IMG/VR virus record: IMGVR_UViG_3300047560_000290
Coordinates: 1-32,546 of that record
DNA: 32,546 bases
Source: a virus
Reading direction: 5' to 3' (one strand)
Positions 13,518 through 21,230 of the stretch are shown one piece after another. Numbering within the stretch: the first letter of the stretch is position 1; every line of letters begins with the position of its first letter. The position numbers and the translations under genes were made by a program. A model generated the notes under the pieces. It was not told the DNA's origin. It saw only the letters and a program-made list of their open reading frames with translations, and ran no database searches.

Positions 13518-16500
13518 ATGCCAATTCGCTCGATAGACGAACTGCGTAGCTGGGCAGGGCCCGATTGGAAAGACGCTTCAGACGAAGACATTATTTCCAT
13601 GTACTCGAAGGTGGCCAAAGTGCCACCTACTCAAGTAGCTATGACCCTTGGCTATGACCCTGGAACTGGGGGCATTGGTGCTAAAGAATTTTCGTCATCT
13701 ATCGACCGATACCAAGCCGGACTCTATGGAGTTGGCGAGGCCGTAACCGGAGCCCTTGGTGCCAATAAAGCAAGCAGCTGGCTTGCTGAACAACGCCGTG
13801 CAAATGAACTTCAAGCTGATGTAGCAACTGCTCGTGCTCGCGAAATGGGCGCTGTTACTGATTGGAAAGACGTCCATGGTATTGAAGACTTTGGCAGCTA
13901 CGCAAAAAACTTAGCGATTCAATCTGCGCCTTACGCTGCTGAAGCATTAACGGGTGGTTTAGTTGCCCGTGGTGCAATGACCGGCACTCGTGCTGCGTTG
14001 GCTGGAGCTAAGACTGCTGAAGAAGCATTGGCTGCCAAGAAAGCCCTTGACCTTGGTTCTGAAGTTGGTGGTGTTGTTGCATCATATCCATCAGCTGTTG
14101 GTGATATCCTGAGTAACCAGCGTGAGCAAAGTGGCAAAACAGATTTGTTGGCTGCTGCAGGATTAGCTGTTCCATACGCTGCACTGAACGCTGTTGGTGT
14201 TGAAAGCGCAGTAATGCGCGGTAGTGCATTTAAAAACACAATCAATCTATTAGACCGCCCCGGTGGTATCTTAGGTGCTGCCACTCGTACTGTTGCCACA
14301 GGCACTGGTGTTGCGCTTAAAGAAGGTATCTCAGAAACTGGTCAAGAGGTATTGAACCAAGCAGGCCGCATGGCTGTAGACCCCAATGCTACGCTGACTG
14401 ACCCTGAAGCACTTGAGCGATATAAAGAATCGTTTATTGGTGGCGCAACCCTTGGCGGGGTAATGGGCGGCGGCCTTGGCGGTTGGAGAAGAAGTGCTCC
14501 TACTAATGAAATTCAACAAGCCTATTCACAACCGGACGTAAGCGGTACACCTACATCTAATGTAGCCCCTCCTGCCCCACCTGTTGCTCCTCCTGCAGCT
14601 GCTAATCATCCAGACCCCATGGCACGTTTGGCTGAGTTGGAAGCTATTGGTAGAGGTTCACCTGCTCGTACAGTTGAAGGTCCTGATGGTAAGCCGTTAA
14701 AAATTCCAGCAACCGAAGGTCGTTTCTTTACACCTGAAGAACAGCAAGAATACCAAGCTATAAAAGCCCAAGTAGCAACCATGACGCCTCCTGCAGTAAC
14801 AGGTGGCACAACAGACATTGCTCAGCAGACTCAAGCTGCTGCTGCACAAAACCAACAAGCTGACCAAGCACAGCAAAACTTAGCCAAGCGTGAAGAAGTC
14901 TTTGGCAAGGTGGCTACGCAGTATGACCCTGCAAACCCAACGTCTCTGAACATCTTTGGTCAGAATATTGAAGGCCCGCGTGTTGCTGTTTTTGGTGATC
15001 GCTTTGCTACTGTATTTAACATGCTGCCACCTCATGTGCAGCAGATTGCGCAGGCCATTACGCAAGCCAACAAAGCATTTGCTTCGCCTGAAAAGCCAAG
15101 CCCACTGGTAAGTTTTAACTTCAATGCTAATAACCCAGTGCCTTCCGCTGATAAAGCCATTGAGGCGCTTGGCAAAGTGATGACTAAGTTCCAGATTGAC
15201 CACGTTCAATCATTAGATGAAGCCGTACAGATTCTCAACAAACTCTCGACGACTACCAAAGGTAATCAACTTGAGCAACTCAACGCCATCTACGAAGCCA
15301 TTACTGGCAAAGACACGGATGGTTTCACAGCAGCGGAAGCTACTAAAGCGGAAAAAGGAGCTAAAGATGGAAAATTGCAACTGCAAACAACTACCGGGCT
15401 GGGAGCAGTTCCAGTCGAAGGCGGAACAACAGAAACAAGCGCAACAGGAGCTGGGGCTGTGGGACCCAGCAACGTTCAACCCGTCGGAGCAGGAAGTGTC
15501 CCTGAAGGATCGCTTGGTCTCCAAACTGGACAGTTATCAGGAGAAGGAATACGGACTGGCACCAGTGCAGTACCCGACATTCGCTCTAGCGTCTCCCCGC
15601 AAGACGCGGAAATAAACACGTTACTCCATCAAGCATTTGGTGGAGAACGTCCTCAAGGAGCATTTGATGAACAAGCCACGCAAGCAGGAGTTAGTGAGTC
15701 CGGACAACCCAATGTTTCAGCCTTGGCTGAGCCAACTGTGGCAAAAAGCACAGAGCCGCGAGTCTACGACCCAAACATCCCATACTACGCCACGGACCTT
15801 AGCCACATCAGCCCAGAACGTCGGGAAGAAATCCGCAAAAACTTAATCCGGTCAATCCTTGCTCCTAAGCAAGAACGAAAAGGCGGGATGAGTCTTGACC
15901 AACGAGTCGAAATGGTAATGCTGGCGCTTAGTGCTGGTGAAACCCATGCGGAAATTGCTGCTCGTTTAAAAGTTTCTGAGTCCACAATTCAGAAACAACT
16001 AGAGCGTTTGGGTATTGTTATTAAACCCAGGTTTACTGAAGCGCAACAGAATGAAGCTACTTCAATTGAACAGCGCCTTGGTATTCCTGCCGGTACTCAT
16101 AACACCACTACAAAACCTTTTGAAGTATCCAAGGCAATCACTAATACATTGCCTGTAGAAGAAACTGCCAAGTTGGTTGACCGACTTAATGAGCTTTATA
16201 AAGTAGCTGAAAAATCTTATGGAATAGACAAACCCAAAGAAGGCAAAGCCTTTGATGATTTGTTGTTGGACGCAGGCGCTGTGTTCAGATCACCTGAATT
16301 TCCTGATGGTGTTGGCGCAGGCGAAATTATTTATTTCTACAGTCGTAATAAAAAAATTACTACTAAAGACACGGCTAGTGAACAGCAGTCAAAAGAAATG
16401 AATGCAGCAACACCAGAACAGCTGAGTGCCGCTGGATTTGGAACTATTTCATCTGCTGGCGGAAGCCAAGGGGCTGTGGGTACACAAGCAACGTCTATAT

Positions 16501-19500
16501 TTAATAGCGCAGAAAAGCTGCAAAATGAACTGGACAAGCTGGAGCCAGGTACGCCCGAGCATACTGAAAAAGCCAAACAACTTGCTGAACTGTGGAATAA
16601 ATACGCCAAGAAGCAAGCTGCTTTAGATGAAGCTGAGCCCACTGTTATGGAAGAAGGGGAAGAGAATGCCGTTCAAGAGTCAAGCACAGAGGAAGTTCCT
16701 GTTCGCAAACGAACCGGAGGTGGCAAAAAGGTGGGCAAAGGAAACGCCAAAGGGGGCAAAGCTGCCGGAGAAACTGAAGTCAAAGTCGAGCCCAAGCAAG
16801 AAGCCAAGCCCGAAGAAGTAAAGACTCCTGCTGAGCAGTGGTCTGAAGTATCTAAACTAGCACCGGAGTTGCCACCATATGACGTTCTTAGAAAATCTGA
16901 AAAAGATCGCTGGGATGATCTCGTCCATCGTGGACAAGCTAACCTTGCGGCTGCTGTCAAAATTGTCGGTGAGATCACTCAACCTTCTGGCACAACACTG
17001 GCCAACGAAAAGCCTGAGGCAACAGGCACTAATGGAACTGCTGAAGCGGTAACCGCTGAAAACGAAATTCCAGCGCCAAAATCAACTCTGTTCTCAAAGG
17101 CAAAAGGCACGACAGAATCTAAAAACTCTGTCTACAACATCTGGAACACTCTTTATAAACTGTTTGATGTAATTCCTGCTGACAGCGCATACAAAGACTT
17201 TATTCGAATTTCACAGACCGCACAAGATGCATATGAGGCTGCTGGTAAGAAGGTGCCACTTGTGCAACTACAAAACGCTCAGGCGTTTATTGATCCGACC
17301 GATGATCGTATAGTGCACTTGATTGCAGACAACATTGCCAAGGGCAGTGAGCTTGCAGTTTTACTCCACGAAGTTGGTGTCCACGTTGGACTCAAGAAAA
17401 AACTTGGCGCAAACTTTAAGATTCTTGAAGGTCAAGTCAAGTCATGGGCAAATGCTTCTAAGGGAAGCCTTGAGCGTCAAGTCTATGAGCGTGCCATGGC
17501 TCGTGTAGCGGCTGCCCGTATGGATGGCGCAATTAGCGCTGATATCGCTGCTGAAGAACTGGTAGCCTACGCTGCTGAAGAAGCTGCTTTGGCTGGTGTA
17601 AAAGTTAAGGATGCTCCTCGTTCCCGCCTAGAAGCATGGGTCAAACAACTTCATGATATTGCTTCACAAGCATTTAAGAACTTCTTCAAGATAAACAACG
17701 TTCCAGAGTTGTCTGTCCAAGACTTGGTCAATTTCTCTTTTGCTGCTGCGCAAGAACACATGCAGGCACATCGTAGTGAAATCGGCGCAAACGCCAGAGC
17801 TACTGAAAGCCAAATTGCTAAGTACTATGCAGGAGCCAGAGGGACTTACGATGGCACAAGCGTAGTCGTAAATGAGGACAGACCCGGACCCGGTGAAGAG
17901 TCATTCTTCTGGAGTCCTGCTGACAAGTTTGGTTCCTTCACTGAAATTGGTACTAGAGGTTTTTATAGCCCCGCTCGCTTTCGTGCTCCTGAGTACGCAG
18001 CCATGGTGGTGACTTCTGCCGAGTCCAGAGCCTTTGGTGATGAGCAAAAGAACAATCAAGACAAAGTTTTGTTGACATTCCAAGCTACTCGCGACCACCA
18101 AACAAACATATGGTCTCTGATTGTGTCAGGCCCCGACATCGACAGTGCACTTTATGTTGATCTATATGTAGAAGGTTTGGCTACGACTACCAAAGACAAT
18201 GAAGGTAATGAATGGTCCCGCCTTGAGGGCATTTCTGGTCGTGACAATCTACGTTTACTGGGAGAGTTCCGTCGTCGTTTGACTCGTATGAAAGATGGAG
18301 AGATTCCAAACATTGACTTTGTACGAGTAACAGGTTCAGGTGCAACCAAAGAAGAAGGTAGACCGGGTGTATACGCAGCTGATACTTTGGCTACAAGGTT
18401 TTCCAAAGCGCCAACTGGGGAACAAGTCATTAAGGCTTTGCCCAAGCCCTTACAAGAAACAGCTCGTCGTCAGTTTACTAACATTAAGACACTGGCTAAA
18501 CGTGGCTTCTATGCTTCTGCGATTACAGAAGACTTGGCTAACATGGCTCAGAAGTACATGCCTTCAGTGTCCAAGTATTTGCAGGCTCAGTATGCTCGTC
18601 AAGCTACCCGCTTAAACTTTGAAAAGCGTATCGAAAATATCTTGGCTGCATTTGACAAGTTGCCTGAGAACCTTAAAGGCGAAGGTAAAGGCAGTGTCAA
18701 TGAATACATCCACGATTCAACTCGTGAAAAGAAGTGGGGCTACTACCCAGGTGAGCAGCAAGTGGGTACTAAGTTGTTTGAAGTTGATGAAGACTTTAAG
18801 AAACGCTTTGACGCATTCCCTGCCCCTGCACAGCAACTTATTAAAGACGTGTTCCAGCACGGCTACGATGCATTAAGACTCAAACAGCAAGCTGCTGAAA
18901 ACGCAGTGAATCGTGAGTTTGACTCTCGTATTAGAAACGCTGGTAATGATGCTGACCTGCTGCAACAGATTGCCAAGGAAAAGAAACAGGCAATCAAGCG
19001 GATTACTAACATTCGCAATGTCAGTGTTGGTGACCCTTATGCATACCTTGGACGTTATGGTGACTATGTTGTTGTTGCCAAGTCCAAAGAGTTTATTGCC
19101 TACGAAGAAGCAGCTACAGGTACAGAAGCTCGTGTCGGGGCAGAGTACGTCACTGGTGACAAACAACAAGCCAAAAATTGGCTGCAGGAAAATGTTTCCA
19201 ATCCCCTGCACTATATAGTTCAATTTGCCGAAACACAAGGCGAGGCTGATGAGATTGCTGCCAAGCTGCAAGCCACTGGCCAATATGATATTCAACCTGA
19301 AGACGCAGGTATCAAAGAAGCCAACGCATCCTACTTTGGTGGCTCAGATGTTCACCTTGCTGTAGCGCGCCTGCGTAACTTGGCAGAGCGTCGTTCTGAT
19401 TCGCCAGACTCCAAGCTCGATAAAGCAATCGCTGACTTGTATTTGATGTCCGTGGCTGATGCCAGTGCCCGTGCCTCTGAACTCCAACGCAAAAACGTTG

Positions 19501-21230
19501 CAGGCGCAGACAAGAACATGATGCGCAACTTGGCTACTAGCGGTCGTGCTGACGCACACTTCTTAGCTTCCTTGGAACACAGTGATGAGATTAGCGATTC
19601 ACTCGAAGCCATGCGTACCGAAGCACGCAGGAACCGCAAAGAAGCCATGCCAATGTACAACGAGTTGTATATTCGCCACGCAAACAGCATGGACTACCAG
19701 CCGGTCGGCGACTTGGCTAGTGCATTAACACGTATGACAACGCTGTGGACTTTGTCTACTAACCCAGCGTTCTACCTCCAACAGGTGCTTCAGACTTCTG
19801 TGTTGTCTTTGCCATTCATGGCAGGACGCCTCGGTTACTTCCGTTCTGCTCGTGCTATCAAGCGTGCTTACGGTGACATGTCTGAGTTGGTTAAAGGTTT
19901 GGGAGTTAATGAGCACATTGACTTCAACAAGGCCCCCGCAGATGTGCGCAATATGCTGAACACATTGGTCGGCATGGGTAAGATTGACCTTGGTATTGAT
20001 GCTGAAGCCAAAGCCCGTACTGATGAGCAGGGCACACTTGGTAAAGTGATGCTCAAGTTGCAAGGTGTTAATACACGTATTGAGTCAATCAACCGTGCCA
20101 CTGCGGCCATTGCAGCCTATCGCGGATACCTTGAGCGTTATAAGAACGGTGATACTGCCGCTGCTACCAAGTATGCTGCTGACGTTGTGTCCAACACACA
20201 TGGCTCATATGATGGATTCAATACACCTCGCGTGCTGCAAGGTGGCGTATCCAAGGTAGCGTTGCAATTCAAACGCTTCCAAATCATTCAGCTGTCCATG
20301 CTTGCCAAACTGATTCACACCTCATTCAAAGGTGCCAGTGCGGAAGAGAAGGCTGTGGCGCGTGCTTCACTAAGATTTATTACTGCACACATGGCAGTTC
20401 TTGGTGGCGCACTGGGCGTGCCGTTTGTTTCACAAGCCGCTTGGATTCTGTCTAAAGTGTTTGGAGATGAAGACGAGCCCGATGATTACGAATACAAGTT
20501 GCGTCGCATGATAGGTGACGGCCCTGCCGCTGACTTGCTGCTTCGTGGTGTACCTGCTTATTTGGGTTTAGAGTCTTTGGGCAAGAAGTTGTCCATGGAA
20601 AACGTTGCGTCTCCATTCGGTCCATTCGTAGAACCTGACCTGACTTCTCGTTCCGGTGCTGAAAAGATGTTGGTGGGGGTTATGGGCCCAGCCGCTAATA
20701 TTGGGCTGAAGTTTACAGACGCGCTTGGCATGATGTCCAAGGGTAACTACTACAAGGGCCTAGAGTTGGCGTTGCCTAATGGCGTAGCCAATGCGATGAA
20801 AGCGTACCGTTTCTCCACTGAGGGAATTACGATGCGCAATGGGGACTTGGTGATGAAGCCTGAAGACATCAGCTTAATTGATGCTGCCTTCCAAGCCGTT
20901 GGTCTCCCCACAACGACCATTACTGATAGACAATACACTCAGAAAGTGATTGCCGAGTTTGACAAGTTCTATTCAGAGCGTGCCAAGGATATTAAAGGTT
21001 CTTATGTGGAAGCCTCTCGTTCAAGTGATTCAGCTGCCATGGCTGAAGCACGAGATGACTGGCAGAAGTTGCAAGAGTCGAGAGTTAAAAACGGATACAA
21101 GCGTCAGCCAATGTCTGAGTTGTTCCGCGCACCAGTCGAAGCACGCAAGCGTGAACGTGGTGTTGTTGGTGGTGTAGAAACCACTAAATCAAATCGTAGG
21201 TTTGTCGAGCAAGTAAGCTCAGTTTCTTAA
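13518..21230 (+). CDS. Giant polyvalent-type internal virion protein, 2570 aa
   Basis: Single ORF of 7.7 kb. Visible order: a short N-terminal domain, a helical region with hydrophobic Ala/Gly-rich helices (about 125-310), a Pro/Ala linker, and a helical domain (about 455-620). Then comes a low-complexity linker, a helix-turn-helix (791-838, with AEIAARLKVSESTIQKQL), and a second Lys/Glu/Gly linker (about 1040-1190). A zincin-like LLHEVGVH motif (H1284, E1285, H1289) follows, with EELVAYAAEE at 1346 as a possible third ligand. Long helical polyvalent-protein-like regions and C-terminal hydrophobic helices (about 2085-2105 and 2290-2315) complete it. It is likely packaged and ejected with the DNA, where it could form a channel and protect the genome. 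The HEVGVH spacing is one residue longer than HExxH. Three small ORFs are embedded in another frame. Confidence 0.8.
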   Translation: MPIRSIDELRSWAGPDWKDASDEDIISMYSKVAKVPPTQVAMTLGYDPGTGGIGAKEFSSSIDRYQAGLYGVGEAVTGALGANKASSWLAEQRRANELQADVATARAREMGAVTDWKDVHGIEDFGSYAKNLAIQSAPYAAEALTGGLVARGAMTGTRAALAGAKTAEEALAAKKALDLGSEVGGVVASYPSAVGDILSNQREQSGKTDLLAAAGLAVPYAALNAVGVESAVMRGSAFKNTINLLDRPGGILGAATRTVATGTGVALKEGISETGQEVLNQAGRMAVDPNATLTDPEALERYKESFIGGATLGGVMGGGLGGWRRSAPTNEIQQAYSQPDVSGTPTSNVAPPAPPVAPPAAANHPDPMARLAELEAIGRGSPARTVEGPDGKPLKIPATEGRFFTPEEQQEYQAIKAQVATMTPPAVTGGTTDIAQQTQAAAAQNQQADQAQQNLAKREEVFGKVATQYDPANPTSLNIFGQNIEGPRVAVFGDRFATVFNMLPPHVQQIAQAITQANKAFASPEKPSPLVSFNFNANNPVPSADKAIEALGKVMTKFQIDHVQSLDEAVQILNKLSTTTKGNQLEQLNAIYEAITGKDTDGFTAAEATKAEKGAKDGKLQLQTTTGLGAVPVEGGTTETSATGAGAVGPSNVQPVGAGSVPEGSLGLQTGQLSGEGIRTGTSAVPDIRSSVSPQDAEINTLLHQAFGGERPQGAFDEQATQAGVSESGQPNVSALAEPTVAKSTEPRVYDPNIPYYATDLSHISPERREEIRKNLIRSILAPKQERKGGMSLDQRVEMVMLALSAGETHAEIAARLKVSESTIQKQLERLGIVIKPRFTEAQQNEATSIEQRLGIPAGTHNTTTKPFEVSKAITNTLPVEETAKLVDRLNELYKVAEKSYGIDKPKEGKAFDDLLLDAGAVFRSPEFPDGVGAGEIIYFYSRNKKITTKDTASEQQSKEMNAATPEQLSAAGFGTISSAGGSQGAVGTQATSIFNSAEKLQNELDKLEPGTPEHTEKAKQLAELWNKYAKKQAALDEAEPTVMEEGEENAVQESSTEEVPVRKRTGGGKKVGKGNAKGGKAAGETEVKVEPKQEAKPEEVKTPAEQWSEVSKLAPELPPYDVLRKSEKDRWDDLVHRGQANLAAAVKIVGEITQPSGTTLANEKPEATGTNGTAEAVTAENEIPAPKSTLFSKAKGTTESKNSVYNIWNTLYKLFDVIPADSAYKDFIRISQTAQDAYEAAGKKVPLVQLQNAQAFIDPTDDRIVHLIADNIAKGSELAVLLHEVGVHVGLKKKLGANFKILEGQVKSWANASKGSLERQVYERAMARVAAARMDGAISADIAAEELVAYAAEEAALAGVKVKDAPRSRLEAWVKQLHDIASQAFKNFFKINNVPELSVQDLVNFSFAAAQEHMQAHRSEIGANARATESQIAKYYAGARGTYDGTSVVVNEDRPGPGEESFFWSPADKFGSFTEIGTRGFYSPARFRAPEYAAMVVTSAESRAFGDEQKNNQDKVLLTFQATRDHQTNIWSLIVSGPDIDSALYVDLYVEGLATTTKDNEGNEWSRLEGISGRDNLRLLGEFRRRLTRMKDGEIPNIDFVRVTGSGATKEEGRPGVYAADTLATRFSKAPTGEQVIKALPKPLQETARRQFTNIKTLAKRGFYASAITEDLANMAQKYMPSVSKYLQAQYARQATRLNFEKRIENILAAFDKLPENLKGEGKGSVNEYIHDSTREKKWGYYPGEQQVGTKLFEVDEDFKKRFDAFPAPAQQLIKDVFQHGYDALRLKQQAAENAVNREFDSRIRNAGNDADLLQQIAKEKKQAIKRITNIRNVSVGDPYAYLGRYGDYVVVAKSKEFIAYEEAATGTEARVGAEYVTGDKQQAKNWLQENVSNPLHYIVQFAETQGEADEIAAKLQATGQYDIQPEDAGIKEANASYFGGSDVHLAVARLRNLAERRSDSPDSKLDKAIADLYLMSVADASARASELQRKNVAGADKNMMRNLATSGRADAHFLASLEHSDEISDSLEAMRTEARRNRKEAMPMYNELYIRHANSMDYQPVGDLASALTRMTTLWTLSTNPAFYLQQVLQTSVLSLPFMAGRLGYFRSARAIKRAYGDMSELVKGLGVNEHIDFNKAPADVRNMLNTLVGMGKIDLGIDAEAKARTDEQGTLGKVMLKLQGVNTRIESINRATAAIAAYRGYLERYKNGDTAAATKYAADVVSNTHGSYDGFNTPRVLQGGVSKVALQFKRFQIIQLSMLAKLIHTSFKGASAEEKAVARASLRFITAHMAVLGGALGVPFVSQAAWILSKVFGDEDEPDDYEYKLRRMIGDGPAADLLLRGVPAYLGLESLGKKLSMENVASPFGPFVEPDLTSRSGAEKMLVGVMGPAANIGLKFTDALGMMSKGNYYKGLELALPNGVANAMKAYRFSTEGITMRNGDLVMKPEDISLIDAAFQAVGLPTTTITDRQYTQKVIAEFDKFYSERAKDIKGSYVEASRSSDSAAMAEARDDWQKLQESRVKNGYKRQPMSELFRAPVEARKRERGVVGGVETTKSNRRFVEQVSSVS
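15355..15360 (+). promoter_or_regulatory. Shine-Dalgarno for nested ORF at 15367
   Basis: A perfect AAGGAG is separated by 6 nt (CTAAAG) from the ATG at 15367. It lies inside the giant gene, where a ribosome site has no use for the main frame. Confidence 0.6.
15367..15615 (+). CDS. Nested (overprinted) small ORF inside giant gene, 82 aa
   Basis: Lies wholly inside the 2570-aa gene in the +1 frame. It is preceded by AAGGAG at ideal spacing. The product starts MENCNCKQLPGWEQFQ and contains a Gln/Lys/Glu helix, LGLWDPATFNPSEQE, and GLAPVQYPTFALASP near the end. Two Trp, balanced composition and a conserved-looking end make it look like a real protein. The overlapping main frame is Gly/Thr/Ala/Val-rich low complexity there. 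Function is unknown. A second and a third nested ORF lie downstream in the same frame. It could be a small ancestral gene trapped when the giant gene grew through it. Confidence 0.55.
   Translation: MENCNCKQLPGWEQFQSKAEQQKQAQQELGLWDPATFNPSEQEVSLKDRLVSKLDSYQEKEYGLAPVQYPTFALASPRKTRK
15655..15660 (+). promoter_or_regulatory. Shine-Dalgarno for nested ORF at 15667
   Basis: A perfect AAGGAG is separated by 6 nt (CATTTG) from the ATG at 15667. It has identical strength and spacing to the site at 15355-15360. Confidence 0.5.
15667..15846 (+). CDS. Second nested small ORF inside giant gene, 59 aa
   Basis: Same alternate frame as the ORF at 15367, beginning 51 nt after its stop, with its own AAGGAG. 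The product begins MNKPRKQELVSPDNPM, then FQPWLSQLWQKAQSRE, which looks like a natural small basic protein with two Trp. The C-terminal 25 residues are Thr/Ser-rich and less convincing. The overlapping giant frame is again linker-like. No family is recognised. Confidence 0.42.
   Translation: MNKPRKQELVSPDNPMFQPWLSQLWQKAQSRESTTQTSHTTPRTLATSAQNVGKKSAKT
16666..16821 (+). CDS. Nested small conserved phage protein of MPFKS type inside giant gene, 51 aa
   Basis: Same alternate frame as the ORFs at 15367 and 15667. ATG is preceded by a GAAGGGG purine run about 6 nt upstream. The product reads MPFKSQAQRKFLFANEPEVA, then KRWAKETPKGAKLPEKL, ending in a Lys/Ser/Pro tail. Very small proteins beginning MPFKSxAQRR..Y/F-AxxPE-AKRW.K.TPK are common in phage genomes, and I recognise this family without knowing its function. 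The match covers almost the full family length, which a random shadow frame would not give. The giant frame here encodes only a Glu/Lys/Gly linker. Confidence 0.65.
   Translation: MPFKSQAQRKFLFANEPEVAKRWAKETPKGAKLPEKLKSKSSPSKKPSPKK

Follow-up and report, generated by a model that had tools for sequence, protein, structure and literature searches.

At positions 13518-21230 (plus strand) of the window, that is, of the whole 32,546-nucleotide stretch of viral DNA from IMG/VR analysed here, lies an open reading frame for a giant protein of 2570 amino acids of the DarB-like or polyvalent type. The protein matches phrog_10089 (DarB-like antirestriction; E 5e-59) and NF032893 (E 7e-87), and its score against the latter, 292.5 bits for a cut-off of 100, qualifies it as a member of that curated family. 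Its similarity to the polyvalent, DarB-like giant phage proteins (PMC5512222) rests on the phrog_10089 match and on a C-terminal PLxRFG (tail-700) domain, recognized by a domain match at residues 1902-2534 (19221-21119, plus strand). A helix-turn-helix-like segment (residues 793-830; 15894-16007, plus strand), which scores below the Pfam cut-off, is located between two nested genes described below. Among close relatives, the middle of the giant, from the nest of the small gene discussed here to the C-terminal domain, is highly variable in length, as if domains had been swapped; the distance from the nest to the conserved C-terminal block ranges from about 300 to 1070 residues.

A small gene inside the giant frame

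Wholly within the giant gene, on the same strand and one base out of frame (+1), positions 16666-16821 encode a protein of 51 amino acids, MPFKSQAQRKFLFANEPEVAKRWAKETPKGAKLPEKLKSKSSPSKKPSPKK; translation thus bore out the out-of-frame ORF reported in the first-pass annotation. The open frame begins upstream, at 16627, and the start used by relatives is the methionine of MPFKS. As a complete gene inside another gene, on the same strand and in another frame, the ORF fulfils the definition of the embedded architecture.

The proposal that this product belongs to a recurrent small phage family was upheld. At least 447 relatives are encoded in viral contigs, and the protein search for stand-alone phage relatives, suggested as a check, returned many of them. 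The 51-residue product matches phrog_1375 weakly (E 4e-4, residues 3-48), a longer reading of the small ORF matches at E 4.7e-5, and 35 of 60 aligned MPFKS members match the same family (best E 3e-7). From the relatives, 80 loci with 49-98% identity in the best segment were kept for comparison. In the alignment of 60 members, M1, P2, F3, Q8, P17, A20, L33 and P34 are invariant, and the protein of the window, with a significant match over most of its length, the MPF start and the conserved residues, meets the criteria for membership. Of 45 records, 44 have just one copy of the gene. A chance origin of the ORF is excluded because the protein is homologous to stand-alone proteins and conserved. 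The function of phrog_1375 is unknown, and the library gives neither a function nor a hint of nesting; searches of Pfam and NCBIfam with the small protein yielded only chance-level matches (Ets, E 0.2; Dcp, E 0.11).

The ORFs at 15367 and 15667 share the frame of the MPFKS gene, as the first-pass annotation had stated. The former (15367-15615, plus strand, +1 frame) is a second nested gene, identified by the constraint scan and its relatives; it encodes 82 amino acids with a KQLPGWEQFQSKAEQ motif and a conserved AAAGGAGCTAAAGATG-type start. The scan flags 15348-15577, coinciding with this ORF, and both the product and the start (AAAGGAG, a short spacer and ATG), including the Shine-Dalgarno sequence, are kept in relatives. 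Of these, 28 were found; all those examined lie inside a giant frame, with no stand-alone copy among them. Soon after this gene follows a weaker candidate, 'MNKP' (59 amino acids; 15667-15846, plus strand), the start of which is kept in most, not all, close relatives and which gives no signal in the constraint scan. Another weak candidate (57 amino acids, +1 frame; 16879-17052, plus strand) gives a partial scan signal, and only the closest relatives keep its frame open. Hence, the broader view that linkers of the giant host small genes is supported for the ORFs at 15367 and 16666 and merely suggested for those at 15667 and 16879.

Constraint on the two frames and the nested start

Pairwise comparison of 39 distinct nested cores, each 26 codons long, gives a mean identity of 0.69 for the small frame and of 0.50 for both the giant frame and the third frame; small-frame identity exceeds giant-frame identity in 96% of core pairs. 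Mismatches at small-frame codon positions 1, 2 and 3 amount to 0.22, 0.20 and 0.38, respectively, which is a coding pattern even though the third position of the small frame is the first of the giant frame. Conversely, among 14 giants related to that of the window, mismatch at the third codon position of the giant frame is 0.55-0.67 over the 130 codons upstream and falls to 0.08 and 0.16 within the nest, where this position becomes the most conserved. It is 0.20 to 0.40 in a generally conserved stretch of 78 codons just downstream of the nest and 0.63 to 0.69 past that block. When 15 giants were scanned for such an inversion, the MPFKS nest was flagged in 10 and gave no signal in three, and the remaining two had no homologs to compare. 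On the evidence of these comparisons, substitutions within the nest track the small frame, and the claim of real overlapping coding is sustained. The MPFKS frame might instead be a fossil, that is, the dead remnant of a once stand-alone gene through which reading continued after the fusion of two genes; stand-alone family members do exist, and the giant frame passes through a linker at this site. However, the start, frame and core sequence have been kept over very divergent giants, with substitutions following the small frame, and the codon-position pattern already contradicts a dead frame, so that only a very slight chance is left to this explanation.

The giant frame, for its part, remains open. 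The first 36 codons contain no giant-frame stop in any of 41 distinct nested copies, as against at least one in 24 of the 29 stand-alone or fused ones. Counts of nested and stand-alone copies are not independent, owing to shared descent, yet the nested giants are very divergent, with the nest at amino acid positions from 339 to 1093. Constraint on both frames is thus met in the sense that the giant stays open and the small frame is conserved; individual residues of the giant within the nest have not been shown to matter. The same counts bear on the idea that the giant ORF is in fact two real genes separated by the small gene and joined by an accidental read-through. Seven relatives in which the giant ends just before MPFKS speak for such an arrangement, but the unbroken giant frame in 41 of 41 distinct nested copies, at a site where stand-alone copies usually have stops, and the continuity of sister giants over the site even without the nest reduce it to the least credible of the readings considered.

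The nested ATG is preceded by GAAGAAGGGGAAGAGA, and a purine-rich, ribosome-binding-like stretch (GAAGAAGGGG; 16650-16659, plus strand) lies ahead of it; close relatives have GGAG or AGGAG there. A GGAG/GAGG-type motif at suitable spacing precedes 12 of 29 distinct nested ATGs compared with 178 of 2290 control ATGs, the controls being pooled same-frame ATGs of the same giants. The motif of the window, GGGG, is non-canonical and was left out of the 12. All 12 motif-bearing starts fall outside the AT-rich marine group, and these marine relatives mostly lack a Shine-Dalgarno sequence at the nested ATG. It is conceivable that ribosomes translating the giant frame slip by one base, which would make MPFKS an alternative end of the N-terminal half, and the constant relative frame (+1 in 58 of 58 nested cases of the giant-centred sample described below) would fit such slippage. 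Nevertheless, the small frame is open for just a few codons ahead of the methionine in many nested relatives, this methionine is invariant and is also the start of stand-alone relatives, and Shine-Dalgarno sequences occur at several nested ATGs; a frameshift product is therefore considered highly unlikely. Taken together, homology, nesting, frame and constraint, all established by comparison, support the reading of 16666-16821 as a functional overlapping gene with a probability of roughly 0.85; its translation is inferred, in the absence of translational or proteomic data.

Nested, abutting and separate copies

In a sample centred on the small protein (the window and the 80 best of at least 447 relatives), 48 of 81 copies lie inside a long ORF, in one and the same relative frame; the host ORFs of these copies span 761 to 3596 codons, several being shortened by contig ends. 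Since these loci had been selected by the small protein, a second sample was drawn via the giant, comprising 80 loci found with the conserved N-domain of marine giants. Seven of the 80 are uninformative, having no MPFKS match and a giant cut by a contig end. The expectation that relatives would keep the gene in the same nested position was met in 58 of the 73 informative giants, every one of which carries MPFKS in frame +1. Likewise, in the window's own clade, sampled by the C-terminal domain, the gene is nested in 18 of 18 loci that cover the region (two 5'-truncated loci fall short of it). Not foreseen in the first-pass annotation was that the gene may sit just after the stop codon of the giant: MPFKS lies directly 3' of the stop in seven of the 73, with gaps of 1 to 32 bases. 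It was not found in the remaining eight loci, for which a search of the whole records yielded one weak match. In two MPFKS-less loci, L292 (~16050) and L304 (~15850), a different small basic ORF (MPKDACY..FPSAYASGAIAKCRK) starts 2 bases past the stop of the giant. Across the sampled sequences, nesting is thus usual and not obligatory.

The gene is also carried by cultured phages, namely the Flavobacterium 'elemo' phages (68 records with that host were matched, and the frame was checked in five), and by the assembled podovirus ctfjg026. The nested product of the elemo phages has 42 amino acids. In the elemo stretches examined, only the giant is annotated, as a 'structural protein', and the nested gene is not; fully nested genes are easily overlooked in annotation. 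The five elemo species are identical over the nest and its flanks and hence provide no information on selection. The nesting identifies giant phage proteins as hosts of extra genes, with cultured phages available as test cases.

Sister giants with different arrangements amount to a natural experiment. The giants of L044, L064 and L093 (1608-1684 amino acids) align with that of L027, in which MPFKS is nested at residue 501, over much of their length (L064 over nearly all of it). In these three loci, MPFKS starts 2, -1 and 2 bases after the stop of the giant, respectively. An acidic stretch persists at the equivalent place in their giants but lacks DAIQ, a peptide imposed on the giant frame by MPFKS. 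These sister giants, with MPFKS outside, imply that the giant can do without the nested sequence and that the small gene can do without nesting. The notion that the linker of the giant exists only because of the nest is unsupported, as sister giants with MPFKS outside keep the acidic linker. In a tree of the giants' N-domains, nesting predominates, and two switches between the nested and the outside position are required, the direction of which is unresolved; the nested/outside label is hardly clustered on this tree beyond chance.

On average, the tail of the small protein has a charge of +9, and the linker that the giant draws from the same DNA one of -3.9. From the genetic code and these averages, it can be inferred that one stretch of DNA is able to encode both an acidic linker and a basic tail; such an overlap would be easy because a shift by one base turns the glutamate codons GAA and GAG into codons starting with AA or AG, which mostly specify lysine or arginine. 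It is judged slightly more likely than not that flexible linkers of these giants are a permanent location for small embedded genes (MPFKS and the gene at 15367 at the least, the latter observed solely in nested form) and that MPFKS has switched more than once between a nested position and one outside the giant. If so, this site would offer a directly traceable case of the formation or dissolution of overlapping genes.

Proposed function and comparison with known embedded genes

In the proposed mechanism, initiation at the internal ATG of the mRNA would yield the 51-residue basic protein, predicted to form a two-helix hairpin with a lysine-rich tail, and other ribosomes, reading the same bases one out of phase, would produce the acidic, flexible linker of a giant virion-type protein. 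The small protein would dictate the sequence in the nest, with the giant merely staying open and tolerating the resulting peptide. An independent gene is presumed to have become embedded in the giant, because family members also occur immediately behind the giant, at other places in head modules, and as parts of larger fusion proteins. The net charge of the window's protein is +11 (mean, +12 for nested and +15 for stand-alone copies), and its structure model has two helices (residues 6-15 and 17-26, high confidence) followed by a low-confidence tail. Neither a sequence search nor a fold search of the PDB produced a match (best E 0.2 and 5, respectively); a two-helix model of 51 residues is too small for a fold search to be very informative.

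Just ahead of stand-alone copies, genes for portal, head-tail adaptor, terminase or major head proteins are often found (tallied by family, not by locus). From this neighbourhood and the charge, it may tentatively be inferred, with less than even confidence, that the product is a small, head-associated binder of DNA or of the inner capsid or portal region, synthesized alongside the giant. Alternatively, the overlap is real and the small protein is instead an early host-takeover, anti-defence or regulatory factor. Giants of the DarB-like/polyvalent type, to which the host protein belongs, are known for counter-defence, and small basic proteins are often regulators; stand-alone copies, however, often occur in head modules beside portal and terminase genes rather than in early regions, which leaves such a role somewhat the less likely of the two.

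Double-stranded DNA phages are known to have genes fully embedded in the +1 frame of another gene, the foremost example being Rz1 within Rz of lambda (PMC6139136). The Rz/Rz1 spanins share with MPFKS the complete containment of a small gene in a second gene of the same strand, in the +1 frame and in a flexible part of the host protein. Among the spanin pairs surveyed by Kongari et al. (2018), 182 are embedded, 228 overlapped and 118 separated (PMC6139136); Rz1-type genes are thus also found overlapped and separated, as MPFKS has non-nested forms. However, no spanin family in that survey combines the embedded with another architecture (PMC6139136). Unlike the spanins, MPFKS is nested, abutting, separate and fused within one family, and its host is a giant virion-type gene. 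By reading of its sequence, the 51-residue protein has no cysteine and no long hydrophobic stretch, its net charge is +11, and nothing in it points to a lipoprotein or a role in lysis. In the article of Iyer et al. (2017) on polyvalent proteins, the terms 'overlapping' and 'different frame' are absent, and 'nested' there denotes a hairpin fold (PMC5512222). No earlier report of MPFKS nesting was found in the open literature, most subscription papers not being covered. Embedding itself is known; one family in all architectures and a giant virion-type host are new as far as the open literature shows. The occurrence of one family in nested, abutting, separate and fused forms makes the origin and cost of overlapping genes testable by comparison.

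The MPFKS module is also found at the N-terminus of larger proteins of 125 to 1517 amino acids (L021, L022, L032, L045, L056, L068, L072, L178 and L231). In L021 the fused part is M48-peptidase-like, and in L022 it is a DUF5661 domain; no named domain other than these two was detected in the fusions. The module could be a docking or packaging tag. In addition, a cousin family with the pattern MPFKSQAQRRKFAELLVEGKIS..FEEWNRETG..LPERV (L104-L122) is encoded on bacterial contigs of up to 260 kb (Acidobacteria, Chloroflexi, Elusimicrobia and others) and is possibly cellular.
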